57,218 nt of DNA, taken from contig MNJR01000115.1 of the NCBI GenBank assembly GCA_001920415.1, forward strand, positions 1 to 57,218. Direction: 5' to 3'. This document shows positions 3,984-22,607 of this stretch, piece by piece. Made by a program: the position numbers and the translations under genes. Under the pieces are notes generated by a model, which saw only the letters and a program-made list of their open reading frames with translations, searched no databases and was not told the DNA's origin. This stretch comes from Acidobacteria bacterium 13_1_20CM_3_53_8 (GTDB lineage Bacteria; Acidobacteriota; Blastocatellia; Pyrinomonadales; Pyrinomonadaceae). Every line of letters starts with the position of its first letter. Within the stretch, counting starts at the first letter, position 1.

Positions 3984-3996
3984 GCGACAAGTTCGC
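3984..3996 (+). promoter_or_regulatory. YRAGT hairpin, copy A1
   Basis: Stem GCGA/TCGC closes the loop CAAGT. Its 3' arm runs into the 5' arm of the following terminator, so the two structures compete. The 17-base string GTGCGACAAGTTCGCCC around it recurs exactly on the minus strand near 18,426. Confidence 0.6.
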
Positions 3997-4042
3997 CCGC
4001 GAGTCTTGAGCCAAGTGCTCGGAATCGCGGGCGTTCTCTTTT
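3994..4042 (+). terminator. Terminator after packaging genes (first of two)
   Basis: Stem CGCCCGCGA / TCGCGGGCG followed by TTCTCTTTT. The loop holds another small hairpin (4008-4020). The T tract is imperfect, so it may be leaky. Confidence 0.6.
4008..4020 (+). promoter_or_regulatory. YRAGT hairpin, copy A2
   Basis: Stem GAGC/GCTC around loop CAAGT, inside the loop of the surrounding terminator. The stem differs from the GCGC/GCGC type but keeps pairing, which is a compensatory change. Confidence 0.5.
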
Positions 4043-4143
4043 GAAAAGTCAGGCTCAGGTCGCGCATGCCTAATGTGCCGCGATGAAAGGTGGCAACAAC
4101 TCTTCGGCTGCCGCCTGAGCCTGATTGAAAATTTTGTTGCTCA

Positions 4144-4156
4144 GTGCCAAGTGCGC
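4144..4156 (+). promoter_or_regulatory. YRAGT hairpin, copy B
   Basis: GTGC/GCGC stem (one G-U pair) around CAAGT. Its 3' arm GCGC is also the first four bases of the terminator stem that follows, so the two folds are mutually exclusive. Confidence 0.6.
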
Positions 4157-4195
4157 CCCGTTGGGTTCGGTTGAAATCCAACGGGGCGCTTTTTT
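4153..4195 (+). terminator. Rho-independent terminator before protease gene
   Basis: A perfect 12-bp stem, GCGCCCCGTTGG / CCAACGGGGCGC, is followed by six T. Together with the weaker hairpin at 3994 it separates the packaging genes from the capsid genes, which lie in the same direction. The late transcript must read through it or restart after it. The rest of the 287-base gap shows no gene. Confidence 0.88.
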
Positions 4196-4241
4196 GTGTC
4201 CACAGGGCGCTTCTGATTGAAAGGAAAAGCGGGCGTTCTCT

Positions 4242-5051
4242 ATGCGCGAGTTCAAATCAACTCTACCAGGCAGTGTAAAAGGTATTGATGGCAGAATTGT
4301 CACAGGCATCTGCGCCGTCTTCGGAAACGTTGATTACGTGCGCGACCGCATCAAGACAGGTGCCTTCAAGAAGACCATCAAAGAAGCTGGCCGCATGGCC
4401 AAGCACCTCTGGAACCATTCCGGCTTTGAGCCTCCCATCGCCGTCATTCGCACTCTCCAGGAAGTAGGCCGCGACGGCCTGCCCGATGAAGTTCTGAAAT
4501 ATGCGCCCGATGCCATGGGCGGCCTTGAAGTCGCGCGCGAGTACCTGAACACGCCGCGCGCCGACGAGGTCTTAGAGGGCATCTCTAAGGGCGCGATCAA
4601 TCAAATGTCATTCGGCTATGACACCGTGAAGATCGCATACACGGAGGAGGGCGAAGGAGTCCCTCCCGTTCGTGAACTGCTAGAGCTAAAGCTTTACGAC
4701 ACGTCGGACGTGAACTGGGGCTGCAACGATGCGACCGTAGGTTCCAAGACGTCACTCCAGGGCCAGCCGCTCGAAGCCGTATTGCAGCAGCTTGCTCTCC
4801 ACGTACAGGCAACCAAAGCAGACCAGCGACGGTTGCCGAATCCGCAAACCATTCACGCGCTGGTCAAAGCCGCACTCGACTTCGGTTGGGACGGCATCAT
4901 CCCCAGCGCATTCCAACCCTCGACCGATACCGAGACGAGCCGAGCCGAAGAAGAGCAGGGCGCTGCCGACGAGCAGAAGTCTGACGATCCTTCACTCACT
5001 GAGATAGGCGCACGGTTGCAGGAACTCAACCTCTTTCAACTGTCACTTTAA
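4242..5051 (+). CDS. HK97-type prohead maturation protease
   Basis: Serine protease that cleaves the scaffold part from the capsid protein after prohead assembly. The herpesvirus-protease-like fold shows its catalytic pair: His in KHLWNHS (H55 or H59) and Ser in QMSFGYD (S123). The C-terminal 90 residues are polar and poorly conserved, as usual in this family. Length (269 aa) is normal. It ends 14 bases before the capsid gene, the standard order. The ribosome site is weak (AAGGAAAA, about 16 bases upstream). Residues 1-40 contain the usual motif for a start at the ATG in MREFKST. Confidence 0.93.
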   Translation: MREFKSTLPGSVKGIDGRIVTGICAVFGNVDYVRDRIKTGAFKKTIKEAGRMAKHLWNHSGFEPPIAVIRTLQEVGRDGLPDEVLKYAPDAMGGLEVAREYLNTPRADEVLEGISKGAINQMSFGYDTVKIAYTEEGEGVPPVRELLELKLYDTSDVNWGCNDATVGSKTSLQGQPLEAVLQQLALHVQATKADQRRLPNPQTIHALVKAALDFGWDGIIPSAFQPSTDTETSRAEEEQGAADEQKSDDPSLTEIGARLQELNLFQLSL

Positions 5052-5065
5052 GGAGTAAGGAATCT

Positions 5066-6226
5066 ATGGCAGACACTTTACTGCAAGCAAAGAAAACTGA
5101 ATTAAAAACCATGCTCGCGCGCGCCAATACATTGCGCGCTGAATTCGAGCAGAAGCACGCGAAGAACGAACAGTTCGACGCAACGGAACTGAACAACTTG
5201 ATTGACTCTGGCACTGCGCTTCGTGAGGAGATCACCAAGATAGAGGCGCTTGATCAACTCGGCGAATTCGTTGACGGCAAATCCGCAGAGCGTGAGGAGA
5301 GTGCGCGCCGCCGCTCAGAAAGCCAAGCGAAGTCCAAGTCATGGGGCCAGATTTTCACAGGCTCAGATGAATATAAGGGCCGCGACGTAGAAGGCAAGAC
5401 GAAGCCCGTTAACGTAAAAGCCAATCCTATGCTCGGATCGGTTGACGCGCAGGGCGGCTATCTCGTCTTCTCGCAGCGCGAAACGCAGGTGCGTGACCAG
5501 GCCCCGCTGCCCGACCGCACTCTCCTGCAAATCCTCAATACCAGCCCGACGACCAGTGACGCCATCGAGTACATCATACTCAATAGCTTCACAAACAACG
5601 CCGCGCCGGTGCACTACGTGCTGGCTTCGCGCCGCATCCTTGACGATGCACCGCGCGTACAGAATCTGGTTGACGTCAAGCTGGCAGGCGGCCTTGAACT
5701 CAAGGTCGAGAGTGAATGTCTCAACGGTGACGGCACTGGCGAGCATTTCCTCGGCATTCTCAACACGCCGAATATACAGAGCCGCATTATGGACGGCGTT
5801 GCCGGCCAGGTGATGACGGGACGCAATCAAGCGGTGGCCGATACGGTCGCCGACACGCTGCGCCGCTCCATCACGGACATCCGTCTCGCTTTCTACAAAG
5901 CCAACGCGATTGTCCTGAATCCTTCGGACGCTGAAGACTTGGAGTTGCAGAAGGACCAGAACAAAAACTACATGAACATCTACGATCCGATTGCCCAGCG
6001 CATCTGGCGTGTTCCTGTAGTCGAGTCTGTGACGATTGCCGCGAAGACGGCCTGCACGGGCGACTTCATCATGGGCGCAACCCTGTGGGATCGCATGCAG
6101 ACGGACATTCGCACGGGCGAGCCGAACGACCTTTTCCTGCGCAAAGCGCTGGCGATCCTCGCCAACGTGCGCGCGGCTTTCGCGGTCACAGACCCGGCGG
6201 CTTTCGAGAAGATTCTGCTCAAGTAA
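5066..6226 (+). CDS. HK97-type major capsid protein with scaffold domain
   Basis: Main shell protein. Residues about 1-105 form the charged coiled-coil delta (scaffold) segment, rich in Glu/Lys/Ala, that the upstream protease should remove. The mature part begins near NVKANPMLGSVDAQGG. Typical capsid landmarks follow: the E-loop region around LPDRTLLQILNTSP, the P-domain, and a C-terminal FRKALAI-like strand (DLFLRKALAILANVRAAFAV). Strong ribosome site TAAGGAG before ATG. 386 residues is within the family range. Confidence 0.93.
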   Translation: MADTLLQAKKTELKTMLARANTLRAEFEQKHAKNEQFDATELNNLIDSGTALREEITKIEALDQLGEFVDGKSAEREESARRRSESQAKSKSWGQIFTGSDEYKGRDVEGKTKPVNVKANPMLGSVDAQGGYLVFSQRETQVRDQAPLPDRTLLQILNTSPTTSDAIEYIILNSFTNNAAPVHYVLASRRILDDAPRVQNLVDVKLAGGLELKVESECLNGDGTGEHFLGILNTPNIQSRIMDGVAGQVMTGRNQAVADTVADTLRRSITDIRLAFYKANAIVLNPSDAEDLELQKDQNKNYMNIYDPIAQRIWRVPVVESVTIAAKTACTGDFIMGATLWDRMQTDIRTGEPNDLFLRKALAILANVRAAFAVTDPAAFEKILLK

Positions 6227-6231
6227 TTCGT

Positions 6232-6323
6232 ACTGGCCCAACCGAAGGGGGCACAAGTCTCAGACTTGATTTCGGTGGGCCACTAAGCCTGGGGCCGGGG
6301 CAATGCGGGAAGCTGCGCCGGCC
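6232..6323 (+). other. Structured leader after capsid gene
   Basis: The space between the capsid and the next gene can fold into two hairpins. GGCCCAACCGAA pairs with TTCGGTGGGCC (one bulge), with an inner AAGTC-TCA-GACTT. Then GGCCGG (6293) pairs with CCGGCC (6318), followed by TAATTTTCT. The second could be a weak terminator that lowers expression after the abundant capsid message. This is inferred from pairing only. Confidence 0.4.
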
Positions 6324-6347
6324 TCCGGGCTAATTTTCTAGAGGAGT

Positions 6348-6587
6348 ATGTCAATGAAGTATTTCGTTCCTGAAAAAGATGTGATCGGTAAAAAGGATGA
6401 TGGGCGCGCGTTCATCGTCGCGCACGGCGGCGTTCCGATCCCTTACGTGCAGGCCGAGCGCCTAGGGATAATCCCTGAAAAAGTTGAAGAGGGACAGGTC
6501 AAAGAAATTGAAGCAAGTGGTGAAGCCGAAGGGCCGGGCATCCGTGCGGCGCGTCCGCCGCGCGCGAAGAGAGTGCCTCAACAGTAA
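6348..6587 (+). CDS. Small head-region phage protein, unknown
   Basis: A 79-residue protein with a good GAGGAG site before ATG-TCA-ATG (a second possible start lies two codons in). The N-terminal half looks folded (KYFVPEKDVIGKKDDGRAFI). The C-terminal third is Glu/Lys then Arg/Pro-rich. Its stop overlaps the next ATG. Between capsid and fibre genes, a small capsid decoration or connector role is possible. I do not recognise a family. Confidence 0.6.
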   Translation: MSMKYFVPEKDVIGKKDDGRAFIVAHGGVPIPYVQAERLGIIPEKVEEGQVKEIEASGEAEGPGIRAARPPRAKRVPQQ

Positions 6588-7129
6588 TGGCGCAGGAGAC
6601 GTTACAGGTAGCTTCGATTTCAACTCCCGACTCGTGGACGCTGGGTGCGGGTGCGTCAAAAGTCGTGGCTGTGAATACGCCCGACGACGACGATACAAGC
6701 TACATAAATTCGGGCGCGACTTCGGGAACGACCGAGCAGTTCAACGTAACGGATTCCTCGGCTATCGGCGCGAGCGCCACGATTAACTTCGTTCGCATCG
6801 TGGCGCGCACCAAGAAGGGCGGCTCTCAGACTAGCACATACGTCGTCTCGGTCGTCCTCAGCGGCAACGCGACTGACGGAGCTTCGCAGACTTCCGGCAA
6901 CTCGTCTTACTCGACCACGCAGGACGACTTTGCCACTCGCCCGTCAGTGGGCGGCGCATGGACTCTGGCAGATGTAAACGCTCTTCAAATCAAAATCCGC
7001 AACACCCAGGCGCGTGACCTTAGATGTACTTCGTTCTATGTGATTGTTGATTACACGCCAGCTACGGGAATTGTCGCAGCGCAGCGAGGACCTATGCGCG
7101 GCCTCCTACGAGGGGTGCTTAGAGGTTAA
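6587..7129 (+). CDS. Phage structural protein, beta-rich (putative decoration)
   Basis: 180 residues, Ser/Thr/Gly/Asn-rich with alternating hydrophobics (FVRIVARTKKGGSQTSTYVV), which suggests a beta-sandwich. It ends in a basic Gly/Arg tail (RGPMRGLLRGVLRG). ATG overlaps the preceding stop and the next gene begins 3 bases after its stop, so it belongs to the head operon. A capsid decoration or fibre-base protein fits position and composition, but no signature motif proves it. Confidence 0.6.
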   Translation: MAQETLQVASISTPDSWTLGAGASKVVAVNTPDDDDTSYINSGATSGTTEQFNVTDSSAIGASATINFVRIVARTKKGGSQTSTYVVSVVLSGNATDGASQTSGNSSYSTTQDDFATRPSVGGAWTLADVNALQIKIRNTQARDLRCTSFYVIVDYTPATGIVAAQRGPMRGLLRGVLRG

Positions 7130-10659: not shown

Positions 10660-10672
10660 GCGCTAAGTGCGC
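10660..10672 (+). promoter_or_regulatory. YRAGT hairpin, copy C
   Basis: Stem GCGC/GCGC around loop TAAGT. The 3' arm is shared with the 5' end of the downstream terminator stem. Confidence 0.6.
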
Positions 10673-10716
10673 CTCGTGAGTTGGCAAGAACGCCGACTCA
10701 CGAGGCGCTTTTTTTT
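10669..10716 (+). terminator. Rho-independent terminator after head genes
   Basis: A perfect 13-bp stem GCGCCTCGTGAGT / ACTCACGAGGCGC is followed by eight T. It stands between head and tail modules. Confidence 0.9.
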
Positions 10717-10730
10717 GAAATCAACCAGGT

Positions 10731-10791
10731 GTGCCGAGTGCGCCCAACCGCAGCCGGTCTGCAGGCCGGCGCGAAGAGGAGTTACTCGGCA
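10731..10791 (+). promoter_or_regulatory. YRAGT hairpin, copy D, pairing with tail-tube start
   Basis: The small hairpin is GTGC-CGAGT-GCGC at 10,731-10,743. Alternatively TGCCGAGT (10,732-10,739) can pair with ACTCGGCA (10,784-10,791), whose last base is the A of the start codon; the ribosome site lies in that loop. The two folds exclude each other, as expected of a translational switch (inference). Confidence 0.5.
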
Positions 10792-11393
10792 TGCCAAACG
10801 TAGTCAGCTATAACGCAAATCACGTCATTAAAGGGCCGGGCCGTCTATGGCTCAACACGGCCCTTCCAGCCAGCCCCGGACGCATCACGCTCGATGCGAA
10901 CGGAAACCCGGACGGCACAGAAAGCCCGAACGCGATCTTCCTCGGAATGACGCGCGAGGGTTGCACCTTCACCGAGACCTACACGGAGCAGGGGCAGACC
11001 TGTGACGAGCTAACCGCGCCCTATCGCACCGACATAGACGCCGAGGCGGGCACGCTCGAAGGCGAGTTCCTTGAAGTCTTGAACTTTCAGCGACTGGCGA
11101 AGCTCGCGCCGAACGGCGTTTATAGCGCAGTAACCGGCGTAGGCGCTTACTCGCAGATCACCTTCGGCGGCGTGCTCACGGTCGTGAACGTGCCCGTCGT
11201 ATTGATCGCACCGCAAACTGCCGATCCCACAAAGTTCGTCGTCGTCCAGCTATACGCCGCACACAACACCGCAGGCATCAAGCTGGGCCTAACGAAGAAG
11301 AAGGATGCGGGAATCCCCTTCAAGCTCGAAGCGATGATCGTTCCTGGGCGCGCCGCCGGCGATCAACTCGCAACGATCTGGAAGCAGGACTAA
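10791..11393 (+). CDS. Major tail tube protein
   Basis: Forms the stacked rings of the non-contractile tail tube. 200 residues, beta-rich, with the N-terminal pattern of siphovirus tube proteins (VVSYNANHVIKGPGRLWLNT) and an MTREGCTFTETYTEQGQTCD segment typical of the family core. The ATG at 10,791 follows AAGAGGAG and is preferred over an in-frame GTG at 10,731, which lies in the regulatory hairpin. The next genes are tail chaperone and tape measure, the standard order. Confidence 0.85.
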   Translation: MPNVVSYNANHVIKGPGRLWLNTALPASPGRITLDANGNPDGTESPNAIFLGMTREGCTFTETYTEQGQTCDELTAPYRTDIDAEAGTLEGEFLEVLNFQRLAKLAPNGVYSAVTGVGAYSQITFGGVLTVVNVPVVLIAPQTADPTKFVVVQLYAAHNTAGIKLGLTKKKDAGIPFKLEAMIVPGRAAGDQLATIWKQD

Positions 11394-11483: not shown

Positions 11484-11999
11484 ATGAATAGAGCACAAAG
11501 TTATAGAGAGAAAACGCAGGCCGCGCGTGAAGTACAGGCCAAAGAAATTCCGCTCCCCTCCGGCATGATGGTCTTAGCCGCGCGCATAGACCTTGTGGAT
11601 TGGCTTTCGACAGGGATGCTGCCGCAGGTCTTCGTCGAAGAGGTTTTGAAGATTGTAGAGGATGGACGAAAGCCAACCAGCAGTGAAGTGCTCCGGCGCG
11701 CGAAGGGCAAGGCCATCATCGAATCCTTGATCTTCATGCGCAATATAGTTCAGGCCACGCTTGTAAGCCCACGCCTCGTCATGCGCCCCGACCCGGAAAA
11801 GGACGAGATCGCGCCGCATGAACTCACCAAAGAAGATTTTGCCTTCATCTTCCAGTGGCAGATGGCTGGCGCGCCCGACATCCCCGTGCCGATGAAAGGC
11901 GGCAAGCAAACGAGCGTCGGTGCGCTCCGCAAATTTCGTCGCCGGCGAGCAGTTCCTAATTCTCGCGCAGACAAGCAAAAGGTTCGGACGGCTGCCTAG
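11484..11999 (+). CDS. Tail assembly chaperone, short form (gpG-like)
   Basis: Coats the tape measure protein during tail assembly. 171 residues; conserved parts are LPSGMMVLAARIDLVDWLST near 24 and the SPRLVMRPDPEKDEI segment near 98. It is homologous along its length to the leftward gene at 17,834-18,358. The final 20 residues are basic and out of character, because the biologically important reading frame leaves this one at TTT-CGT (11,934). As in most siphoviruses, a fraction of ribosomes should continue into the overlapping second frame to make the long form. Confidence 0.85.
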   Translation: MNRAQSYREKTQAAREVQAKEIPLPSGMMVLAARIDLVDWLSTGMLPQVFVEEVLKIVEDGRKPTSSEVLRRAKGKAIIESLIFMRNIVQATLVSPRLVMRPDPEKDEIAPHELTKEDFAFIFQWQMAGAPDIPVPMKGGKQTSVGALRKFRRRRAVPNSRADKQKVRTAA

Positions 12000-12168
12000 C
12001 GAGCGCATAGGACTAGAAGACGAGTCGCTTGCGATTGATTTCGATAACGCAGCGGCGCTGCGGCTCATTCAAGTGGCCGACGAAGAAGACCTAGAGGAAG
12101 CCTTTGAAGAGATGGCGGGCGCGCCGCGCAAGCCACGAAGCGCGCGCGACACGACCAGTTACTACTAG
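11920..12168 (+). CDS. Tail assembly chaperone, frameshift extension (gpT-like)
   Basis: Second half of the gpG-T fusion, expressed by a frame change from the preceding gene into the +1 frame near 11,936; the predicted fusion is about 227 residues. Content matches the leftward counterpart: SKRFGRLPSERIGLEDESLA compares with AKKFGQSPSKMLGIQDETIA, and both end in a Thr-Tyr-Tyr tail. An independent start at the ATG has no ribosome site. It ends 12 bases before the tape measure start. The T part normally binds the tape measure. Confidence 0.8.
   Translation: MRSANFVAGEQFLILAQTSKRFGRLPSERIGLEDESLAIDFDNAAALRLIQVADEEDLEEAFEEMAGAPRKPRSARDTTSYY
11931..11939 (+). promoter_or_regulatory. Probable +1 ribosomal frameshift site
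   Basis: AAA-TTT-CGT in the gpG frame; sliding one base forward gives TTC and then GTC-GCC in the gpT frame. The same codons CTC-CGC-AAN-TTT-CGT occur at the same place in the second cassette. No homopolymer suitable for -2 slippage is present. Confidence 0.6.
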
Positions 12169-12180
12169 AGGGGAAAGACG

Positions 12181-13170
12181 GTGGGCGACCAAGACATCAT
12201 CGGTCTGCTGTTTCGCATTGACGCCGATTCGAAGCCTGCGCAAGCCGACATGGAGAAGTTTCGCGGCTTGATGGCCACTGAGTTGGGCCACGTGGAATCA
12301 CTCTTCGGCAGGCTCGGCATCAATCTGCCCACAGGTTTCTTCGGAAACTTGTCGCGCCTCTCTAAAACTGCGCAGGCAGACCTCTCCGGCATAGGCGCTG
12401 GAGGAGGCGCTGCGGCCCAAGGGCTTAGTGCCATTGGCGGCCCAGCCACGGCAGCTATCGGCGTCATCATCGCCGCTACGGGCGCGGCCATAGGACTCGG
12501 TAAGGCTCTCTTCCAGATGGCTAGTGAAGAGGCCGAAGCAGGCTCTAAAGTTTTCGACCTCTCGCAGAAAGCGGCGGTGAGCGTCGAAACCATGTCTGCC
12601 CTGGGATTCGCGGCCAAACAATCAGGCTCTACTGTCGAAGAAGTTGCGCAAGGGTTAGTCAAATTCACGAACAATTTGGGCGAGGCCGAAGCTGGCAACA
12701 AGAAGCTGCGCGCCGAGATGGAGCAGCTCGGCATAAAAACTTTCAACGATACCGAAAAAGCCCTTGATGAATTTCTACAGCACTTCGCCGCACTACGCAC
12801 CGACCAGGAGAGAACTCAAGCCGCCAGCGCCGTTTTCGGCGCTCGTATGGGCGCTTCTCTCGTGGCCACGTTCAATACCGTCGGCGGCAATCTGGACGAG
12901 TTCAAAAAGAAGATGGCAGACCTGGGCGTGGTCATGTCGTCAGATTTCGCGCGCGACGCTGACCGCTTCGGCGATTTGGTAGACCAGATTGACACTCAGG
13001 TGGACGGCATCAAGCGCCGGTTCGTAGCGAACTTCCTGCCTGCTATGGGCGACGCGCTGCAGATCATCTCAAACGAACTCAAATCCGGCGGCGAGTCGTG
13101 GGCCAGTTGGGGAAACTTTGTCAGGGATGAAATCTACGGAATCATCTCTTCTCACCAACATCGCGCTTGA
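12181..13170 (+). CDS. Tape measure protein, N-terminal part (frame-split)
   Basis: Sets tail length and passes through the tube at ejection. GTG start behind GAGGGG, 13 bases after the chaperone. Residues 1-329 match the first third of the leftward tape measure: DIIGLLFRIDADSKPAQADM compares with DVVGLLIKISSDSEDAQADI. A hydrophobic stretch follows (PATAAIGVIIAATGAAIGLG, near 85), then a conserved FDLSQKAAVSVETMSALGFA block. The frame ends after SWASWGNFVRDEIYG, whereas the homologue continues, so the gene is interrupted here. The remainder continues in the next frame from about 13,120. This may be a mutation, an assembly error or, less likely, recoding. Confidence 0.75.
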   Translation: MGDQDIIGLLFRIDADSKPAQADMEKFRGLMATELGHVESLFGRLGINLPTGFFGNLSRLSKTAQADLSGIGAGGGAAAQGLSAIGGPATAAIGVIIAATGAAIGLGKALFQMASEEAEAGSKVFDLSQKAAVSVETMSALGFAAKQSGSTVEEVAQGLVKFTNNLGEAEAGNKKLRAEMEQLGIKTFNDTEKALDEFLQHFAALRTDQERTQAASAVFGARMGASLVATFNTVGGNLDEFKKKMADLGVVMSSDFARDADRFGDLVDQIDTQVDGIKRRFVANFLPAMGDALQIISNELKSGGESWASWGNFVRDEIYGIISSHQHRA

Positions 13171-14935
13171 ACAAGCCCGCCTTGAAATCGAAATTGGCGC
13201 TATGCATCGCGCCGCAAGTGAGAAGCCGGGCGGCGGTGGCCGCAACCTTGATTTCCATACTGTAGGCGAGGGCGGCAATTCGGCACAGGAAGAGCGACTG
13301 CGCGCGGTTGAAGAAGAGGGCCGCAGCCTTCAGAACGCCTATCGTAGAGAGCATGAAGACCTCCAGCGCGAATATGACCTTCAGCTTACAAGCCTTCAGA
13401 GTTTCACAGAAAGAGCCATAGCCGAAGAGGACAATTACTACGCGCAGCGCGTCGAGAATCTCGCCAGACAGAAAGCGCTCGCGCATAAGCAGAGTGAAAT
13501 CCAAAAGATTCTTAACGAGATCGAAGAGGCTGGGCGCGAGCATGACCGCAATACGCAGAAGCTGCGTGATGAAGAGGCCCAACGAGAACTGGAAGCGCTA
13601 AAGGCACACCGCGAGGCCGTGCTCAAACTCGACGATGATTACGATGCGCGCAGCATTGCATCCATCCGCGCGAGCGTTGAGATGCGCGCCGCTACAGAGG
13701 AAGAGGGCGAGCAGAAGATTCTCGACATCCAGATCGCCGCCATGAACCGCAGACGTGATGCTATCGCCGACGATCAGCGCGCGATGCTCGAAGCCGCTGG
13801 CTTCCTATTCGACGCGGAAAACAATGCCATCGCGGGCACGGGAGACATGGCAAAGGTCAATGCCGAAAGGTTTGAGCAGCTAGTAGACCAGTTCAACCAA
13901 TTGACCTCTCAATTAGAGACGTTGCAGGAGGAAGGCGAGCGGCGCGTCAATGCGGCGCGCGCAAGAGATGAGCAGGCCGAGCGCGAATACCAGAACCGCA
14001 TGCAGGCTCTGCATAGAGAGACCGAGCAACAACGGCGCGATAACGAGCGCGCGGAGTTAGAAGCGCGCGAGCGTCATGTCACAGACCATATAACGATCCT
14101 CGCCAGACAAACTGAGCTTGATCTTGAGGAGGCTGATGAACGCAGCCGGCGGAACCTGGAAGAGCTACAAAAGCGCCAAACCGAAGAAGAGTCACTGACC
14201 AACTCCGAAGAACGCAAGCTTGAGATCGAGCAAAATTATCACGAGCTACGAAACCAGGAGATGCAACGCTGGTTAGACGAGCGCGACGAGATCATGCGCC
14301 AAGGCAATGAAGCCGCTGAGAGGCAAGACCCTTCGAGTGCGCGTTCATTATTCGGCGATGACATTGCCGACAAGATGGATGGGGCAACCAGTTCATGGCA
14401 GCGCTTCGGCACAGTCGTCACGGGCGTAATTCGCAACGTGACGCAGAGCGGCCAGAACATGGGCCAGATTCTGGGAGGCGCATTCGGTTCAATCGCTCAA
14501 GGCATCGGCAGTATGGTTCACAACTGGGTGCTCTATGGCACTACGGGGCCGGCTGCGATTCGCAAGGTGCTCGCAGAAGCTCTTGCTTCGAAGGCGGCTG
14601 AAGCGGCGGTCAACGCGCTCTGGTACACGGCACTCGGCATTGCTGACACGTTCTGGAATCCTGCGCGCGCGGGCGCTGATTTCGCCGCAGCCGAGATGTT
14701 CGCAATTATCGCGGGCGGCAGCGCACTCGCCGGGCGCGCGCTCGCTGGCAACGCATTCCGTAATGATGCCGCGCGCGACCAGGGGCTGCCGAGCGCAGCC
14801 AATTCCGGGAGTTCAGGCGGGAACTCCGGCAATGACAGCAATGGCACGCAGATTATTGAGAAGGAGCGGCGCGAAGTCGTCGTGGTCGTGCGCCATTTTC
14901 GGTTACCCAAAAGTTACCCAAAACTACACCACTAA
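13118..14935 (+). CDS. Tape measure protein, C-terminal part (frame-split)
   Basis: 605 residues in the +1 frame relative to the N-terminal part, overlapping it by 53 bases. Long Glu/Arg/Gln-rich coiled coil from about 50 to 400, then a hydrophobic C-terminal region (IRNVTQSGQNMGQILGGAFG; AIIAGGSALAGRALAGNAF) matching that of the intact leftward tape measure. Possible starts are TTG 13,118 or ATG 13,127, neither with a good ribosome site. This favours a broken single gene over two genes. The C-terminus (after VVVVVRHF) also diverges abruptly from the homologue and may carry a second frame lesion. Confidence 0.7.
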   Translation: MSGMKSTESSLLTNIALEQARLEIEIGAMHRAASEKPGGGGRNLDFHTVGEGGNSAQEERLRAVEEEGRSLQNAYRREHEDLQREYDLQLTSLQSFTERAIAEEDNYYAQRVENLARQKALAHKQSEIQKILNEIEEAGREHDRNTQKLRDEEAQRELEALKAHREAVLKLDDDYDARSIASIRASVEMRAATEEEGEQKILDIQIAAMNRRRDAIADDQRAMLEAAGFLFDAENNAIAGTGDMAKVNAERFEQLVDQFNQLTSQLETLQEEGERRVNAARARDEQAEREYQNRMQALHRETEQQRRDNERAELEARERHVTDHITILARQTELDLEEADERSRRNLEELQKRQTEEESLTNSEERKLEIEQNYHELRNQEMQRWLDERDEIMRQGNEAAERQDPSSARSLFGDDIADKMDGATSSWQRFGTVVTGVIRNVTQSGQNMGQILGGAFGSIAQGIGSMVHNWVLYGTTGPAAIRKVLAEALASKAAEAAVNALWYTALGIADTFWNPARAGADFAAAEMFAIIAGGSALAGRALAGNAFRNDAARDQGLPSAANSGSSGGNSGNDSNGTQIIEKERREVVVVVRHFRLPKSYPKLHH

Positions 14936-14977
14936 AAAAATTCATGCCCCTAGAGTCCATCATCCTCTAGGGGCATG
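14934..14977 (-). terminator. Terminator for leftward tape measure transcript
   Basis: A perfect 13-bp stem (CATGCCCCTAGAG / CTCTAGGGGCATG) is followed on the minus strand by AATTTTTTT. It lies between the two converging tape measure genes and faces the leftward one. Confidence 0.88.
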
Positions 14978-15041
14978 AGAGCATCAGCACTTAAAATTTC
15001 GGCGGGCTTCTTCTATAGAAGGTCAACTTATTTTAGACCTG

Positions 15042-17621
15042 TCAATATCGCCGCGCAGCATCTTTTAGTAAGTCAGTTAAGTGTGGGTCGTTGTTATGAT
15101 AGTCCCTCGAAATCTCTTTAGTAACCCACCCGCTCGGCGGTTCAATCTCGTGCCTGATAACTAGGACTTCACGCACGACTGCGCTCCGTCTCTCTTCGTT
15201 AATGATTGTAGTGCTATCATTACTACCTGTGCCGCTCCTGCCGCTTGAGTTTGCTGTGCCGCCATTATCTTTGCTCGCGTTGTTCGCAAAGGCATCGCCA
15301 GCAATCGCCCTACCAGCTATGGCTGCTACGCCACCGATAGAGCCGAAGACGGCGGCTGCCAAGTAATGCTCTGTGGCTGACTTGGCGAATCTGGGATTTC
15401 CCGTGAACCAAGCGAGCGCGGACATTGCTAGACCCTGCGCTAACTCAAATACGGCTTGCACCACAGCCATCTGAGCGATACTAGCAATCACCTCAGCAGC
15501 GAACTTGCGAAAGCCTCCGCCAGAATTTCCGAGCAGCACGAAAGCCCTGACAGCCGCGCCTATACCTTGCGCCACCTGATTAAATGATGAGGATAGTATC
15601 TGCGAAAAGACGTGAGCCTGTTGCCCGCCTAAGCCGAAAGTCTTACTTATCCTCTTACCTAAATCATCAAATGCTTCCGCCAAAGTGGTTATCATCTTAG
15701 GCGGCTCTCCGAGTCCGAACGTCAGATCAATATTCTGCGTGTTGGGCAGTCCGAGCGGCGGTATTGGCGGCATTAAATCGTGCGTCTCACGCAGTACCGC
15801 ATCTGCTATTCGCCGTGTGGCTTCTTCGACGGCCTCAGCCCTCTGTGCTTCTATCAGAAGGTATTCGCCTAGTAAGCCTCTCTTCTTAGCAAGTAGAGAT
15901 TCGTCCTGTTCAACCTCTTCATCGTTAAGGTTCTTCTGCTTCTTGAGCTTCTGGCGGAGCGCGTCCACCTCTTCATCAAGAAGCGCTCGACGGCGGTTGA
16001 ACTGAGACTGTTTTATTTCTAAAACCTGCTGTTCGTAGTTGGAATGTGTTATCCAGCCTTCATCGGCCTGCGCCTTGAGACGCGCTATCTCTCTCTGGTC
16101 TGCGATGTTGGCAATCCCTTCAATCTTCTGACGAAAAGCGCGTTCTGCCTCTAATCGCTTTTGTGCGGCCTCATCATCAATTCGCTGCCTCTCCTCAATC
16201 CGGGCGTTCTGAGCAACCAGCGTGCGTTGGTCAATATCAGCTTGCCTGCGGTTTCTCTCGCTCTTAGTGATATGGGCAGTCTCAAGCGCGCGGAGTTCGC
16301 GGTTCACTCCATCTATAACTGCGTTGAATCGGTCATCCGCTAGTTGCTTGGCCTTTTTTACATAAGCCTCTAGGTCAATTAATTGCTGGTCATATTCTCT
16401 CTGAAGGGCAGCCGTCTTCGCGCGGACTGTTTCCTGAGCGACGCGCGTCTGTTCTTCAGATTCGCGGACGCTCTGTTCAAAAACTTCATCATGCTCGCTC
16501 TTCTTTTTGTGACCACCGCCACCTCCTCCGCCGCCGCTTCTAGCTGCCGCCCTCTTGAGGGCTTCCTCGCGCGCAGCTTGGTCTAGCTGCTCGGAGCGCT
16601 GCTGTCTGTCTGCTTGGACTGCGGCGGATTCAATAGAGAAGGCTGCGACCACTGATAAGGGGTCAAAGCTCCCGCTACGGATAACATCAGAGAAAGTGCG
16701 AACCACTACACGCGCGCCCGCAATCACGTCCCCGATATATTCGCCCCATGACTTCCAAGAGTTTTTACTAGCGCCGAGCGCAGCGCTTATATCTTCCATC
16801 GCGCCCACTACTTCCGGCGCGACCTGAAGCCCTATAGTGTTAGACATGCCGCGCGCCTGCGCGCTCAGCGTATCAAGCGTGTCACCGAATTGGTCTGCGG
16901 CGGCAGCCGCGCGGTCATCAATCACCGCGCCCACTTCATTCGCCCTATCTATCAGCCCGCTCAAACTCCCTTGCGCGGCGTTGATTGTCGGAATGAGACG
17001 GTCACCCGTTTTACCGAAGGCGTCCATCGCAACGCTGGCCTGCTGAACGCCAGCAGGGGAGTCATAGATTTTCTGAAACGCTTTGGCTAGAGCGCCATCT
17101 AAATCTCGGAGCGCTTCCTGCGGGTCTATACCTAACCGCTTCAGTTTTTCCTTCGCCTCGTCAGAGCCGTGCGCGGCATCGCTTACGGTACGGCTAAAGC
17201 GCGTCATACCTTGCGCGAACTCTTCTATGGAAGAACCGCTTTGGTCTGCCGCGAACTTTATTGAAGAGATGGTTGTAGCGCTAAGTCCGGTCTGCTCTGA
17301 CAGGTCGTGTATTTGACTACCAGCGTCGGATGCGTTCTTGGCGAGTTGAAAGATGGCAGCGCCGAGTCCGATGGCTGCGCTTGTTACCGTAGCAATCGCA
17401 GAGCCGACGGCTGGCAGGACGACCTGCATGGTTGCCATCTGCTCGGCACTCAGCCCGATGGAATTGCCGAGAGAAAGGAAAGTGTTCTTACCGCTCGATT
17501 CGATTGCCTTTAATTCGGAATCGTATTTCGAGCGCAGCTTTCCAATATCAGCTTGCGCGTCTTCCGAGTCGGAAGAGATTTTGATGAGAAGGCCAACTAC
17601 GTCGTCGTTGAGTGCGCCCAT
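15042..17621 (-). CDS. Second tape measure protein, intact, leftward
   Basis: 859-residue tape measure in a single frame, homologous to the split rightward one: the N-terminal VVGLLIKISSDSEDAQADIG segment, a hydrophobic segment near 70-95, FDLSQK-like LSEQTGLSATTISSIKFAAD, a poly-Gly hinge near 370, a long Arg/Glu/Gln coiled coil at about 385-620, then a hydrophobic C-terminal region (GQQAHVFSQILSSSFNQVAQ; VFGSIGGVAAIAGRAIAGDAF). It stands behind its own chaperone pair on the opposite strand to every other structural gene. The start codon lies inside a perfect 12-bp hairpin. Two tape measures of different design in one prophage is unusual; this one is the undamaged copy. Confidence 0.85.
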   Translation of the reverse strand: MGALNDDVVGLLIKISSDSEDAQADIGKLRSKYDSELKAIESSGKNTFLSLGNSIGLSAEQMATMQVVLPAVGSAIATVTSAAIGLGAAIFQLAKNASDAGSQIHDLSEQTGLSATTISSIKFAADQSGSSIEEFAQGMTRFSRTVSDAAHGSDEAKEKLKRLGIDPQEALRDLDGALAKAFQKIYDSPAGVQQASVAMDAFGKTGDRLIPTINAAQGSLSGLIDRANEVGAVIDDRAAAAADQFGDTLDTLSAQARGMSNTIGLQVAPEVVGAMEDISAALGASKNSWKSWGEYIGDVIAGARVVVRTFSDVIRSGSFDPLSVVAAFSIESAAVQADRQQRSEQLDQAAREEALKRAAARSGGGGGGGGHKKKSEHDEVFEQSVRESEEQTRVAQETVRAKTAALQREYDQQLIDLEAYVKKAKQLADDRFNAVIDGVNRELRALETAHITKSERNRRQADIDQRTLVAQNARIEERQRIDDEAAQKRLEAERAFRQKIEGIANIADQREIARLKAQADEGWITHSNYEQQVLEIKQSQFNRRRALLDEEVDALRQKLKKQKNLNDEEVEQDESLLAKKRGLLGEYLLIEAQRAEAVEEATRRIADAVLRETHDLMPPIPPLGLPNTQNIDLTFGLGEPPKMITTLAEAFDDLGKRISKTFGLGGQQAHVFSQILSSSFNQVAQGIGAAVRAFVLLGNSGGGFRKFAAEVIASIAQMAVVQAVFELAQGLAMSALAWFTGNPRFAKSATEHYLAAAVFGSIGGVAAIAGRAIAGDAFANNASKDNGGTANSSGRSGTGSNDSTTIINEERRSAVVREVLVIRHEIEPPSGWVTKEISRDYHNNDPHLTDLLKDAARRY

Positions 17622-17653
17622 GATGTGTCTCGCTCTATGGGCGCACTCAGCGC
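17610..17653 (-). promoter_or_regulatory. YRAGT hairpin, copy E, and start-codon-sequestering hairpin
   Basis: On the minus strand GCGC-TGAGT-GCGC (17,653-17,641) forms the small element. The overlapping GAGTGCGCCCAT can instead pair perfectly with ATGGGCGCACTC, the first 12 bases of the tape measure gene, hiding the start codon. The two folds cannot coexist. Confidence 0.6.
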
Positions 17654-17664
17654 ACGATTAATGA

Positions 17665-17877
17665 TTAGTAATAAGTCACCGTGTCTCGGTTGTTTTTTGA
17701 ACGACGAAGCGGAACGTCCTCCAACTCCTCTTCAAATTCATCGTCTGAATCTGACGCGCCCTCAAGTATGAGCCTCGCTGCTGCGGCTATGTTGAAATCA
17801 AGGGCGATTGTTTCGTCTTGTATGCCGAGCATTTTACTCGGAGACTGCCCGAACTTCTTCGCTGTCACGGAGAGCAT
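17665..17877 (-). CDS. Second tail chaperone, frameshift extension (gpT-like)
   Basis: Counterpart of the rightward gpT. Read in the +1 frame relative to its gpG partner, it would join after TTT at 17,900-17,902 to give a fusion of about 230 residues. The frame is open upstream of the nominal ATG (VQTPDF then LMLSV), which aligns with VAGEQF then LILAQ in the rightward copy and so supports recoding. It ends in VTYY, 43 bases before the tape measure start. Confidence 0.75.
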   Translation of the reverse strand: MLSVTAKKFGQSPSKMLGIQDETIALDFNIAAAARLILEGASDSDDEFEEELEDVPLRRSKNNRDTVTYY

Positions 17878-18358
17878 CAGAAAGTCGGGAGTCTGAACGA
17901 AAGTTGCGGAGCGTTTCTACGCTCACAGCACCTCCCTTCATCTGTACGGGAATGCCAACCGCGCCCGCCATCGCCCACATATAGATGAAGTTGCTGTCCT
18001 CTTTGGAAAGGTCGGTGGGTTCAATCTCATTCTTGTTAGGGTCTGCGCCGATGACAATGCGCGGGCTTACCACAGCCTCTCTCACGACATCGCGCATGAA
18101 GACAATAGCCTCTAACACTTGATGACCTGTGAGCTTGTTTTCGATTGACGCGGCATTCTGCTCAACAGAGCCGAAAGCTCTTACTACTTCGCTTAGAAGC
18201 ACCTGCGGCAAGCGTCCCGACATAACCCAAGTCTCAATGTCGGGACGGACGGCCTTCACCTTCAATCCTGATGGAAGAGTGAGTAGTATGGCCGCAGCCT
18301 CTTTATCCGTTCGCCTTCTTTTTCTAATCTGCTCGGCGTTGCTCTCAATCTGAGACAT
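17834..18358 (-). CDS. Second tail chaperone, short form (gpG-like)
   Basis: 174 residues, homologous to the rightward chaperone: LPSGLKVKAVRPDIETWVMS compares with LPSGMMVLAARIDLVDWLST, and SPRIVIGADPNKNEIEP compares with SPRLVMRPDPEKDEIAP. The start at MSQIES is chosen because AAGGAGAG precedes it; an upstream TTG-like extension would begin inside a terminator. It begins just downstream of that terminator, so transcripts arriving from the DUF4177-like gene must read through, or an unseen promoter is used. Confidence 0.8.
   Translation of the reverse strand: MSQIESNAEQIRKRRRTDKEAAAILLTLPSGLKVKAVRPDIETWVMSGRLPQVLLSEVVRAFGSVEQNAASIENKLTGHQVLEAIVFMRDVVREAVVSPRIVIGADPNKNEIEPTDLSKEDSNFIYMWAMAGAVGIPVQMKGGAVSVETLRNFRSDSRLSDALRDSEEVRAVSE
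17897..17905 (-). promoter_or_regulatory. Probable +1 frameshift site, second cassette
   Basis: AAC-TTT-CGT in the gpG-like frame, with CTC-CGC just before it. Skipping the C gives the gpT-like frame. Same codons and relative frame as in the rightward cassette. Confidence 0.6.
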
Positions 18359-18377: not shown

Positions 18378-18415
18378 AAATAAAAATGCCCTTTGGAATT
18401 ACACATCCAAAGGGC
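18378..18415 (-). terminator. Terminator between leftward early genes and tail cassette
   Basis: Minus strand stem GCCCTTTGG / CCAAAGGGC (10-base loop) followed by ATTTTTATTT. It stops or attenuates transcripts from the 18,512-19,289 operon before the second chaperone cassette. Confidence 0.85.
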
Positions 18416-18426
18416 GAACTTGTCGC
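18414..18426 (-). promoter_or_regulatory. YRAGT hairpin, copy F
   Basis: Minus strand GCGA-CAAGT-TCGC, followed by the terminator stem with which it overlaps. The 17-base context is identical to copy A1 on the plus strand, 14 kb away. Confidence 0.6.
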
Positions 18427-18511
18427 ACGATCTGTATAGCCTCTGGCGCTAACGTGGTGCGCGCCTCTCAAGGCTAATGGAATATATCACGGCTGGAATG
18501 ATTTGCCTAGC

Positions 18512-19409: not shown

Positions 19410-19529
19410 ATGAAAGAACAGGAACAAGAAAAGCCGAAGCAGCAGCCGACTAACGAGCAGATGGACAACGCAATATTGATGAAGCCCGTTAGCAAGAATC
19501 CTGAAAGGATTCGCGGCATTCAGATTTGA
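19410..19529 (+). CDS. 39-residue peptide, first gene of rightward early operon
   Basis: Short gene with a good GAAGGGG site and ATG. Its product is very polar in the first half (KEQEQEKPKQQPTNEQ) and basic/hydrophobic at the end (NPERIRGIQI). It follows the strong promoter directly. No family recognised. Small proteins in this position of temperate phages are often antirepressors or other early regulators; this is only a positional guess. Confidence 0.55.
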   Translation: MKEQEQEKPKQQPTNEQMDNAILMKPVSKNPERIRGIQI

Positions 19530-19533
19530 CGAG

Positions 19534-19775
19534 ATTCGCTGGTTACTAGCACGGGAGCTAGGTGAGCGCCCTTCGGCACACCACAACCGGAATGCAGCCA
19601 CGAGGGGCGCTCACAATAAACCAGCGAATGAAGCGCGGGCGTGAAGAATCGGGAGCTTCACGCCCGCGCGCAGCAACATCAGCTAGGTTGAGCTTTCACC
19701 GCCAAGAGTCGCGCGAGAGGCGCGCACTAGCTCCCTAGCATCGGTAAGGGGCTAGGACGCCACCTGCCCCTTACC
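19534..19775 (+). ncRNA. Highly structured RNA segment in early operon
   Basis: Three strong helices in 240 bases. ATTCGCTGGTT (19,534) pairs with AACCAGCGAAT (19,619), enclosing GTGAGCGCCC (19,562) / GGGCGCTCAC (19,605). GCGCGGGCGTGAAG (19,633) pairs with CTTCACGCCCGCGC (19,657). GGTAAGGGGC (19,743) pairs with GCCCCTTACC (19,766). None has a T tract, so they are not ordinary terminators. The space between the two flanking genes is otherwise empty. Candidate phage small RNA, leader regulating the S24-like gene, or replication-related structure. Confidence 0.5.
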
Positions 19776-19812
19776 ATTTACACCAACCATCCACATTAGA
19801 GGGGAAAAGCTG

Positions 19813-20205
19813 ATGCGAGATGAGAATAACATAAGAGGGGGAAAGGTGTGCTCTATCGAAGGATGGAGGCGCGCGGCTCTTTCCAACAAGCAAACCGTAA
19901 CACTACTTTCCGCAGGCTCTAGCTTCAAAATCAAAGTGCATGATGATTCGATGAAGGATGAGGGCATACGCGCGGGCGACCTTATTGATTGCGAGCGTGC
20001 GGACTCTCTTGCTTCGGGCGAGCTAGGTCTGATGAGAACGCCCTACGGCGTGATGGTCAGACGCTTTCTGATAGTCGGCTGCGTCGTCTGCCTAGAGGCT
20101 GCTAACGCTGAATATCCGAAGCTCTGCATGGACTGTTGCGATGTAGAGATATTGGGGCGCTTGCTCAAACTCGAACGCCGCTTCGATGAAAGCGAGGTGG
20201 CGTGA
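19813..20205 (+). CDS. S24/LexA-like domain protein lacking HTH and catalytic Lys
   Basis: 130 residues. Residues about 36-110 match the LexA/UmuD/CI peptidase domain: the Ser region is FKIKVHDDSMKDEGIRAGDL (S46), and the later strand GVMVRRF aligns with VTVKRL of LexA, which puts Arg83 where the catalytic Lys belongs. No N-terminal DNA-binding domain is present; only about 35 residues precede the Ser strand. Self-cleavage would therefore be doubtful, and the protein may bind or antagonise another S24 repressor. Good GAGGGG site. TGATG overlap with the next gene. Confidence 0.7.
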   Translation: MRDENNIRGGKVCSIEGWRRAALSNKQTVTLLSAGSSFKIKVHDDSMKDEGIRAGDLIDCERADSLASGELGLMRTPYGVMVRRFLIVGCVVCLEAANAEYPKLCMDCCDVEILGRLLKLERRFDESEVA

Positions 20206-20534
20206 TGAAAAAGAGGCAGACCGCAAGCAAGACGCATGAGACAGGCGCAGAGCAATACACGGAAATGAGGATGCGCCCCTTCGCTTGGAATGAGCAAGAC
20301 TACGCTCTGATGCTGACGGAGGCAGCCGCGCACGAACATTTCTGCGATGAAGCCAACGCCGCGCTCATTCTCCTAGTGGCGGGCATCGCCGCTATGGAGA
20401 ACGACGAAGACCGTCAGAACATGGCCTACTTCATCATCGAACGCATCTTCTCACGCACGCAAAGGTCTTCGGGCGCTCTCAAAAAGTTCATGCTCGATTG
20501 GGAAGAGAAGGACGAGATTAGAGGCTACGCTTAA
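20205..20534 (+). CDS. Phage protein, unknown, helical
   Basis: 109 residues, coupled to the S24-like gene by a TGATG overlap. Mostly helical and rich in Ala/Glu (DEANAALILLVAGIAAMEND), then a basic/hydrophobic region (RQNMAYFIIERIFSRTQRSS). No family recognised. Part of the early rightward operon. Confidence 0.6.
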   Translation: MKKRQTASKTHETGAEQYTEMRMRPFAWNEQDYALMLTEAAAHEHFCDEANAALILLVAGIAAMENDEDRQNMAYFIIERIFSRTQRSSGALKKFMLDWEEKDEIRGYA

Positions 20535-20540
20535 ACTTTT

Positions 20541-20789
20541 ATGGAAACTAAAAGCAGCGAAGTAAATCTGCCTTCGGGCTTGCCGCAATTCCTAACAGTC
20601 GCAGAGGTGGCCGCGCTGCTCAGGAAGAAAGAGCGAGCCATCTATAACATGGTTCACCAGAGGCGCATACCTTTTCGTAAGGCCGGGAAGACTCTGCTAT
20701 TCGACGCGAACGAAATAGAGGAGTGGACGAAGGCGAGCGCTGAAAAGGCTGGCTCGTCCACTAACTACAGACATAGGAAGCAAAAATAA
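20541..20789 (+). CDS. HTH_17/excisionase-type DNA-binding protein
   Basis: 82 residues. The winged-helix motif is clear at about 18-65: FLTVAEVAALLRKKERAIYN, then QRRIPFRKAGKTLLFDANEI, then EEWTKAS. This is the pattern of AlpA/Xis-like and MerR-like small DNA-binding proteins. With the leftward HTH gene, the block has two such regulators. It may be an excisionase or a transcription factor; without an integrase nearby the choice is open. Confidence 0.75.
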   Translation: METKSSEVNLPSGLPQFLTVAEVAALLRKKERAIYNMVHQRRIPFRKAGKTLLFDANEIEEWTKASAEKAGSSTNYRHRKQK

Positions 20790-21545
20790 ATGGAAAGCAA
20801 AACCTGTAAGAAGTGTGGAGTAACAAAGCCCCGCGACCAATTCTGGAAATCCTCTGACACGCGCGACGGCCTGCAAAGGTGGTGTTGCGCGTGCGGTTCG
20901 GAGAACAACAAGAAGAAGTGGCGTGCTCAGGGCGGCGGCGTAAGGGTTCGAGCCTATACGCAAGACGGTCGCGCCAAGATTTGTTTCAAGTGCGGAGTCG
21001 AAAAGCCGCTAGAAGAGTTTGGAGAATATCGCAGGAGCGATGGCAAGACAGGCGAGCGTCGCGGGTGCAAAGAATGTCGTAGGGCATATATCAGGGAGCG
21101 GGGCAAGCGAGAGGATATTAAGCATTATAGGCAAGTTTATAACGAGCAGACTCGTGAACGCCGAAAGGAGAGAGCGGCAGCCAATTATCAGGCCAACAGA
21201 GAGAGGCTTTTAGAGAAGCAGAGGCTATGGAGGACTGAGAACAGGGATTATTGCCGCGAACACTCGCGCGATTATCTGCGAAGACAGAGACTAAATACAA
21301 TTCAAGCATACGGTGGGCGTTGCGCCTGCTGTGGTGAACACAGGCTAGAATTTCTTTCCATAGACCATATCAACGGCGGAGGACGAAAGCACCGTAGAGA
21401 GATTGGCGGCAGTATCTATGTCTGGCTGCGTAAGAATAATTTCCCAGACGGCTTTCAGGTTCTCTGTCATAGCTGCAACATGGCTAAAGGTCTTTACGGA
21501 GTATGCCCGCATCAGAGTGGAAAAGCGTGTGAAGTTCAGGTATAG
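20790..21545 (+). CDS. HNH endonuclease with N-terminal zinc-finger pairs
   Basis: 251 residues. Two similar N-terminal zinc modules (CKKCGVTKPRDQFWKSSD, then a CxxC; and CFKCGVEKPLEEF, then CKEC) bind DNA in related proteins. A very basic Arg/Glu/Gln helix lies at about 115-165. The C-terminal HNH fold shows CACCGEHRLEFLSIDHINGG and FQVLCHSCNMAKG, with the two Cys pairs framing the DH catalytic motif. The ATG follows the preceding stop directly. It could be a homing nuclease that mobilises this accessory block, or a DNA-packaging HNH helper; position beside the inserted cassette favours the first. Confidence 0.85.
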   Translation: MESKTCKKCGVTKPRDQFWKSSDTRDGLQRWCCACGSENNKKKWRAQGGGVRVRAYTQDGRAKICFKCGVEKPLEEFGEYRRSDGKTGERRGCKECRRAYIRERGKREDIKHYRQVYNEQTRERRKERAAANYQANRERLLEKQRLWRTENRDYCREHSRDYLRRQRLNTIQAYGGRCACCGEHRLEFLSIDHINGGGRKHRREIGGSIYVWLRKNNFPDGFQVLCHSCNMAKGLYGVCPHQSGKACEVQV

Positions 21546-21563
21546 TATGAACTGCAATTCGTT

Positions 21564-21576
21564 GCGCCAAGTGCGC
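21564..21576 (+). promoter_or_regulatory. YRAGT hairpin, copy G
   Basis: GCGC-CAAGT-GCGC. The 3' arm is shared with the terminator that follows. Confidence 0.6.
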
Positions 21577-21610
21577 GTTGAGTTAATCACTCAACGCGCA
21601 TTTTTATTTT
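21573..21610 (+). terminator. Terminator after HNH gene
   Basis: A perfect 11-bp stem GCGCGTTGAGT / ACTCAACGCGC, 5-base loop, then ATTTTTATTTT. It ends the early rightward operon before the remaining tail genes. Confidence 0.88.
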
Positions 21611-21708
21611 GGAGCTTCGTCATCATAGTTCGCCGAAGTCGTTTCTATCGTCAAGAATGACTTTGAGCACAACGGAGTTATTCGACAGTTGATCGAAGGA
21701 GGCGGCTG

Positions 21709-22209
21709 ATGCCGGCAGTCTTTAGCGTACACATTGACGGGCAGAAGCAACTCGACATCGCGTTCAAAGGTTTCGAGCAGGACCTTGGCGACTGGACGCC
21801 GACGTGGGGGAAGATCGGTGATGCCTTCTACAAGATGGAGAAGGCGCATTTCCGCACGTATGACTTCGCGCCTCTCTCGCCGCGCTATGCTGCTCAGAAA
21901 GCGAGGGAAGGATTTAAGAAGGGAATCCTTCGCAAGACAGACCAACTCTATGACTCGCTGACATCTGCGAACGTGGCCGCTTCTTACTATCATGTGACGC
22001 CGCGCTCAATCGCAATCGGCACGTTTGCCATTTACGCCATCTATCATAATTCGACTAAGCCGCGTAGAAGATTGCCGCGCCGTCCGTTGACGAATATCAC
22101 AGACAAGGATCGAAGACAGTTCCGCTCCATCGTCCAGCGCGACGTGGTGGCCGAGGCGAAGCGACGAGGCTTTAGAACGACGGGCGTCGTCCAGGGAGGG
22201 TTAATCTGA
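21709..22209 (+). CDS. Tail completion / virion morphogenesis protein
   Basis: 166 residues resembling the phage virion morphogenesis family (tail completion, PF05069-like): W(P/T)PTWGKIGDAFYKMEKAHF, then LSPRYAAQKAREGFKKGILR, then TDQLYDSLTSANV. The C-terminus is basic. Excellent AAGGAGG site. Such a gene more often sits between connector and tube genes. Here it lies after the accessory block, which suggests rearrangement. One-base overlap with the next gene. Confidence 0.7.
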   Translation: MPAVFSVHIDGQKQLDIAFKGFEQDLGDWTPTWGKIGDAFYKMEKAHFRTYDFAPLSPRYAAQKAREGFKKGILRKTDQLYDSLTSANVAASYYHVTPRSIAIGTFAIYAIYHNSTKPRRRLPRRPLTNITDKDRRQFRSIVQRDVVAEAKRRGFRTTGVVQGGLI

Positions 22210-22571
22210 TGCCTGCTGTCAATCAATATCCCACACCTGTTTTCTTCGGTGGCCCAGGCGGCCCCTTCTGGAAATCCTTCCTTTATCAGGGGCCTGAATA
22301 CAAAGTCACCGTGAGCGCCCCTTACGAAGACGGCGCGCGCGACCGCAACCTGGACTCAACCACCGGCGTGCATAGGTGGAAGATCACTTACGCGGGGCTG
22401 CATGAAGACGAGCAGGCCCAGCTTGATAACCATAACAACTCTGCTTACGGGGAAGCCTACGGTTTCAACTTTTATGACCACAGGACAAATACGCTATGGA
22501 CCAACGTCCACTATGAGAGTTACAAGCGGGGCGCGGGGATATCCAAGAGTGACACGCAGATGAAATCCTAA
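22209..22571 (+). CDS. Tail protein, unknown (possible minor tail/distal tail protein)
   Basis: 120 residues, beta-rich and aromatic (YPTPVFFGGPGGPFWKSFLY; RWKITYAGLHEDEQAQLDNH). Coupled to the upstream gene (TGATG). It precedes the tail-tip gene, where distal tail proteins are usual, but no decisive signature is visible. Confidence 0.6.
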   Translation: MPAVNQYPTPVFFGGPGGPFWKSFLYQGPEYKVTVSAPYEDGARDRNLDSTTGVHRWKITYAGLHEDEQAQLDNHNNSAYGEAYGFNFYDHRTNTLWTNVHYESYKRGAGISKSDTQMKS

Positions 22572-22572
22572 T

Positions 22573-22607
22573 GCGCCAAGTGCGCTTCTAGCAATGAAGA
22601 GGCGCAT
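22573..22607 (+). promoter_or_regulatory. YRAGT hairpin, copy H, before tail-tip gene
   Basis: GCGC-CAAGT-GCGC at 22,573-22,585. Alternatively ATGCGCC (22,571) pairs with GGCGCAT (22,601-22,607), two bases before the GTG start, enclosing the GAAGAGG ribosome site. The folds compete. Confidence 0.5.

Follow-up and report, generated by a model that had tools for sequence, protein, structure and literature searches.

Here we report nine copies of a 13-nt hairpin, each with a 4-bp stem and a YRAGT loop, in the intergenic regions of a prophage, where the 3' arm of the hairpin is shared with intrinsic terminators or the element can pair around start codons. Their strand-specific orientation, conserved pairing and the mutually exclusive terminators or start-codon helices predicted next to them make an RNA switch well supported and probable. 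We propose, with a probability of roughly 0.5, that the hairpin is the putative site of a trans-acting RNA-binding factor and forms the first half of a bistable leader controlling the virion genes.

The window analysed here, 57,218 nucleotides in full, is the first 57 kb of a 97-kb contig from a 6.1-Mb draft genome of an uncultured host. The prophage extends from position 46 to about 32400 and encodes a terminase, portal, head protease, major capsid protein, connectors, tail proteins and a large 1822-aa protein; the contig start falls inside it, and the early genes are absent from the sequence. Its non-coding share is 3011 of 32355 nt (about 9%). The host is probably acidobacterial, as suggested by an Acido-Lenti-1 RNA to the right of the prophage (53412-53459, minus strand), which scores above the Rfam threshold and belongs to a repeat some 200 bp long that is dispersed through the genome in many copies of 81-86% identity (32413-32622 and about 53410-53620 in the window, and others on contigs C79, C3, C115, C72, C29, C44 and C1); the copy at the right end of the prophage scores below threshold. 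The window also holds a c-di-GMP-I riboswitch aptamer at 35189-35296 on the plus strand (45.4 bits) and, in the right part of the prophage, a long AT-rich, near-perfect inverted repeat at 30821-30896 (AGTTTTTAGTTTTCAGTTTTCAG...CTGAAAACTGAAAACTAAAAACT), whose Rfam miRNA matches are below threshold.

The tail module of the prophage is present in two convergent copies, at 11484-14978 on the plus strand and 15042-18358 on the minus strand, whose chaperone-like proteins are 38% identical and whose tape-measure N-terminal regions are 32% identical; the related viral locus L082 apparently has one copy of this module. A small frame at 17665-17877 (minus) overlaps the end of the tail-chaperone-like gene at 17834-18358 (minus), and both match adjacent overlapping frames of L082, an arrangement that resembles programmed-frameshift tail chaperones.

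On the plus strand, hairpin copies 1 to 5 lie at 3984-3996 (stem GCGA/TCGC, loop CAAGT), 4008-4020 (GAGC/GCTC, CAAGT), 4144-4156 (GTGC/GCGC, CAAGT), 10660-10672 (GCGC/GCGC, TAAGT) and 10731-10743 (GTGC/GCGC, CGAGT), and copies 8 and 9 at 21564-21576 and 22573-22585 (both GCGC/GCGC, CAAGT). Copies 6 and 7 are on the minus strand, at 17641-17653 (GCGC/GCGC, TGAGT) and 18414-18426 (GCGA/TCGC, CAAGT); the positions 17653 and 18426 by which the original prediction had listed them are their 5' ends. An independent scan recovered all nine at the predicted sites, with the stems, loops, intergenic location and orientation that had been described, and the description of these places as module junctions is a fair one. 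Every copy is oriented along its flanking genes, a tandem arrangement occurs only at 3984/4008, and two pairs of copies are identical across the 13 nt, with different flanks.

This number of sites is far beyond chance expectation, since Markov-2 resamples of the prophage contain 0.18 sites on average and at most three (300 resamples), compared with the nine observed. The pattern GNGMYRAGTKCNC has 68 matches in the 6.1-Mb genome, nine of which fall within 19 kb of the prophage and are all fully paired; the remaining 59 are dispersed over other contigs, those on C24, C28 and C79, for example, being isolated single sites. All nine copies are intergenic, though only about 9% of the prophage is non-coding. 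A covariance model built from the copies, as the original prediction had proposed, separates them from all other sequence of the window, scoring 19.8-23.2 bits against 13.0 for the next match, by a model (R1) trained on the same nine copies that it scores. Stem pairing is complete (28 of 28 cells), equally good pairing occurred in 6 of 500 shuffles, and two of the four pairs are changed on both sides: pair 2 is C-G, U-G or A-U and pair 4 is C-G or A-U, the single U-G pair of the GTGC/GCGC stem being read on the transcribed strand. The claim that stem bases change together while pairing is kept thus holds for the pairing and for the two double-sided changes; as covariation it is suggestive, being based on seven distinct sequences.

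As anticipated, the 3' arm of five copies overlaps the 5' arm of an intrinsic terminator, and copy 2 lies inside such a terminator. The terminator at 3994-4033 (plus) has 3 nt in common with copy 1, and copy 2 is its apical hairpin. At copies 3, 4 and 8, the shared segment is 4 nt, and the terminator stem begins with precisely the four bases of the 3' arm: a 15-bp stem with a U tract at 4153-4189 (plus), upstream of the prohead protease gene (4242-5051, plus), a 17-bp stem with eight T at 10669-10708 (plus), and an 11-bp stem with a U tract at 21573-21599 (plus), preceding the neck/tail-completion gene (21709-22209, plus). The overlap is 2 nt at copy 7, where a 10-bp stem with a U tract at 18388-18415 (minus) precedes the tail-assembly-chaperone-like gene starting at 18358 (minus). 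Counting all downstream stems, the 3' arm forms the base at seven copies, and this pairing exceeds that with shuffled downstream sequence at six copies (p < 0.013), with a value of 0.07 at 22573.

A scan for long stems found six strong intergenic terminators in the prophage, five of which carry the motif, a small sample with the cut-off for 'strong' set by eye. The five motif-bearing terminators stand between genes of the same strand, and the motif-free one, at 14942 (minus), lies at the end of the minus-strand tail operon, facing a convergent gene. This is the distribution expected if the motif marks terminators that have to be passed at times. Three of the five copies at terminators are preceded, within 110 nt, by promoter-like sites identified by consensus match only, namely GTGACA-17-TATAGT at 3883-3911 (plus) upstream of copy 1, TAGGCA-17-TATATT at 18481-18509 (minus) upstream of copy 7, and TGGAAA-17-TATAGT at 21518-21546 (plus) upstream of copy 8; the background rates are 0.002, 0.007 and 0.028, and the counts may be inflated by AT-rich spacers.

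The other three copies, at 10731, 17653 and 22573, can form helices over the start codons of the major tail protein, a tape-measure protein and a further gene, and folding agrees with the alternative pairing near start codons that had been predicted for three copies. At 10731, positions 10728-10739 are complementary to 10784-10795, including the ATG at 10791; here GGTGTGCCGAGT, comprising the 5' arm and loop, is the complement of ACTCGGCATGCC around the start of the probable major tail protein gene (10791-11393, plus), a start that is backed by alignment with L082. At 17653, positions 17649-17637 pair with 17621-17609, the ATG at 17621 included, and TGAGTGCGCCCAT, the loop and 3' arm, is the perfect complement of ATGGGCGCACTCA at the start of the second tape-measure gene (15042-17621, minus), which is likewise backed by homology with L082. 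At 22573, pairing of 22580-22589 with 22598-22607 and of 22572-22577 with 22609-22614 covers the ribosome-binding site and the GTG at 22610. All three leaders give better folds than their shuffled versions, with z scores of -5.0 (10731), -3.1 (22573) and -3.7 (17653), and among 27 prophage starts ranked by least accessibility, 17653 comes first, 22573 second and 10731 fourth; three in the top four would arise by chance with a probability of about 0.001.

The hairpin and its downstream fold are predicted to be mutually exclusive at eight of the nine copies. The hairpin stem alone contributes -2.4 to -5.6 kcal/mol, and the penalty for enforcing it is 5.8-7.5 kcal/mol at four of the terminators and 13-15 kcal/mol at the remaining four sites, so that either a bound factor or kinetic trapping, with the hairpin forming first during transcription, would be needed. 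In prefix folds, short nascent transcripts of seven of the eight leaders adopt the hairpin as their minimum free energy structure, ahead of the downstream arm; at 10731, the simple hairpin was the minimum in none of the prefixes tested.

In the switch that we propose, the long downstream fold would win when the factor is absent: the terminators at 3984, 4144, 10660, 18426 and 21564 would form, helices would hide the start codons at 10731, 17653 and 22573, and the virion genes would be off. Binding of the factor to the hairpin in the nascent RNA would hold the 3' arm, and the base of the terminator beside the U tract, or the start-codon helix, could then not form. The bound state would allow read-through or translation of the protease and capsid, tail, neck and downstream genes. 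The conservation of the YRAGT loop in unrelated leaders argues for recognition. We infer a trans-acting factor, most likely phage-encoded, with activation as the direction of control and the lytic phase as its probable timing. Against the switch stand copy 2 (4008), which, lying inside its terminator, could not block that terminator by the same route, the terminator overlap of just 2 nt at 18426, the prefix folds of 10731, the large penalty for refolding at four sites (13-15 kcal/mol), and the absence of the element from the related phages compared.

A speculative candidate for the factor is a 78-aa protein with CxxC and HxxxxH patterns encoded at 3718-3954 (plus), directly upstream of copies 1-3, a guess suggested by gene position and residue pattern. 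A family search with this protein gave no match and a search for relatives gave none that was convincing; one 37% match, in genome G058, stands beside NtrC-type two-component genes and is probably due to chance. A single-sequence structure model was uninformative, and AlphaFold models made without alignments were of low confidence. Members of the Com family were not found among the small prophage proteins scanned, the early region lying beyond the contig start, and no immunity repressor was recognised in the part of the prophage on the contig. A genome search for the ANTAR domain gave no match, as did the same search in control genomes.

In one alternative account of the nine hairpins, the common base of the GC-rich terminators is due to chance or descent, or the hairpins serve in RNase processing or RNA stability and there is no switch at all. 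Most copies do adjoin terminators, and the two pairs of copies identical across 13 nt fit dispersal, but three copies lie away from terminators, the loops are conserved while the terminator stems vary, the flanks of identical copies differ and the excess over chance is large, which makes this account very improbable. A switch that works by kinetics without any factor, in which the hairpin forms first and delays the terminator or start-codon fold to give a time window as in metastable leaders, would agree with the prefix folds; however, it leaves the YRAGT loop conservation across otherwise unrelated leaders unexplained, and a 4-bp stem of this energy is a weak trap, so that we give it a slim chance. 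The original prediction had paired the RNA switch with a boxB-like site. Lambda boxB is a small pentaloop hairpin in phage transcripts, and by analogy a phage N-like peptide on the hairpin could make RNA polymerase processively antiterminating, the overlap with terminators then being incidental. The likeness extends to a small pentaloop stem in phage RNA, placed along transcription and upstream of terminators; yet no boxA-like sequence with up to one mismatch is found on the same strand upstream of any copy, and a processive complex would need neither a copy at nearly every internal terminator nor copies at three translation starts, the sites here being local. This boxB- or nut-like reading is accordingly improbable, and of the original pair the switch is the well-supported part, given the orientation, the pairing and the exclusive folds.

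A role in DNA deserves separate consideration. In phage L5, stoperators are 13-mers that occur many times per genome, are intergenic and are aligned with transcription (PMC9283540), and the elements described here resemble them in size, intergenic spacing, orientation and number per phage. A repressor could bind the double-stranded 13-mer and block initiation or elongation across the late region in the same fashion, with the dyad arms acting as half-sites. Stoperators, however, are asymmetric duplex sites without dyad arms, whereas 4-bp arms are present here in 9/9 copies, with paired changes and coupling to RNA folds; a duplex operator requires neither paired changes nor U-G pairs, and the terminator-shared 3' arm at five copies and the start-codon helices would have no function. 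We regard such a DNA site as unlikely.

Among known RNA systems, several come close to the switch proposed here. The RAT elements of BglG, SacY and LicT are about 29 nt long with internal asymmetric loops, in contrast to the 13 nt and 4-bp stem of this hairpin; the introduction of PMC3369931 describes these systems as a protein-stabilised hairpin overlapping a terminator. In the EutV/ANTAR system, a 13-nt element overlaps four eut terminators, and the ANTAR proteins EutV, NasR and AmiR in general act on hairpins of about 13 nt with conserved loop bases that extend into the 5' portion of a number of intrinsic terminators within one gene cluster, the two folds excluding each other (PMC3369931). 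Overlap with the 5' arm of a terminator is found at five of our copies, but in ANTAR sites the hairpins are arranged in tandem and their 6-nt loops carry A1 and G4 (PMC3369931), whereas the hairpins here are usually single, have the 5-nt YRAGT loop and occur at start codons too. The Com protein of phage Mu binds a short hairpin beside an inhibitory stem containing a GUG start codon and thereby exposes the start (PMC6483171), an arrangement like that of the three copies at which an inhibitory helix beside the small hairpin takes in the start codon. Com, however, has one target in Mu, against nine sites that are dispersed over this prophage and include five at terminators, and its motif CC(N)2-3GAG (PMC6483171) differs from ours. 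ANTAR leaders and Com-mom are thus the nearest systems in logic, and membership fails on the loop and dual hairpin for the former and on the protein and motif for the latter.

A search of related prophages, also proposed in the original prediction, did not recover the element in any of the 79 related viral loci or in the prophages compared. These relatives were found through portal and protease alignments, which succeeded where portal and capsid single-protein scans gave no relative, and comprise 79 viral loci, among them the syntenic L082 (portal 43%) and L083 (protease 57%), as well as a prophage of genome G042 and MW202444. Clustered or recurrent YRAGT hairpins were found neither in L081-L164 nor in the G042 prophage (L016/L017) and MW202444, and the element is absent from about 1 Mb of related viral DNA. 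L346, a second prophage fragment in the same genome as the window (G000, contig C39, 7.9 kb) with a related protease, has no YRAGT hairpin. Scans for the motif together with a terminator matched one site in IMG/VR and 51 sites in GTDB genomes; no cluster was among them, and inspection revealed no convincing shared-arm terminator. Exact 16-mers in IMG/VR formed no clusters among the matches listed, save in viral contig L267, where a tandem 9-bp repeat at 1819-1912 (minus), GCGCCAAGT, yields the same 13-mer by an unrelated origin. In the G042 prophage, k-mer counts showed no enrichment of a 'TTAAGTA'-like feature seen near terminators, which was dropped. Rfam gave no match at gathering score in the prophage of the window. 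The hairpin looks private to this phage lineage within the collections searched.

Taken further, the two kinds of site suggest a scheme that we put forward tentatively, as possible but short of probable: a single phage RNA-binding factor would use one 13-nt hairpin in two ways, blocking terminators and uncovering start codons. The virion gene modules would then be under a distributed late-gene switch that acts after initiation, either in place of a Q-type antiterminator or late sigma factor or alongside one. The proposed switch predicts effects of stem swaps and loop mutants at eight sites of one phage. If it is true, this would be a phage regulon coordinated after transcription initiation, in which one small RNA site acts on both termination and translation, whereas the known cases compared use their site for one of the two. 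It would also provide a new pair of short hairpin and protein in a phage whose host group is little studied, together with a concrete scheme for the control of its late genes.
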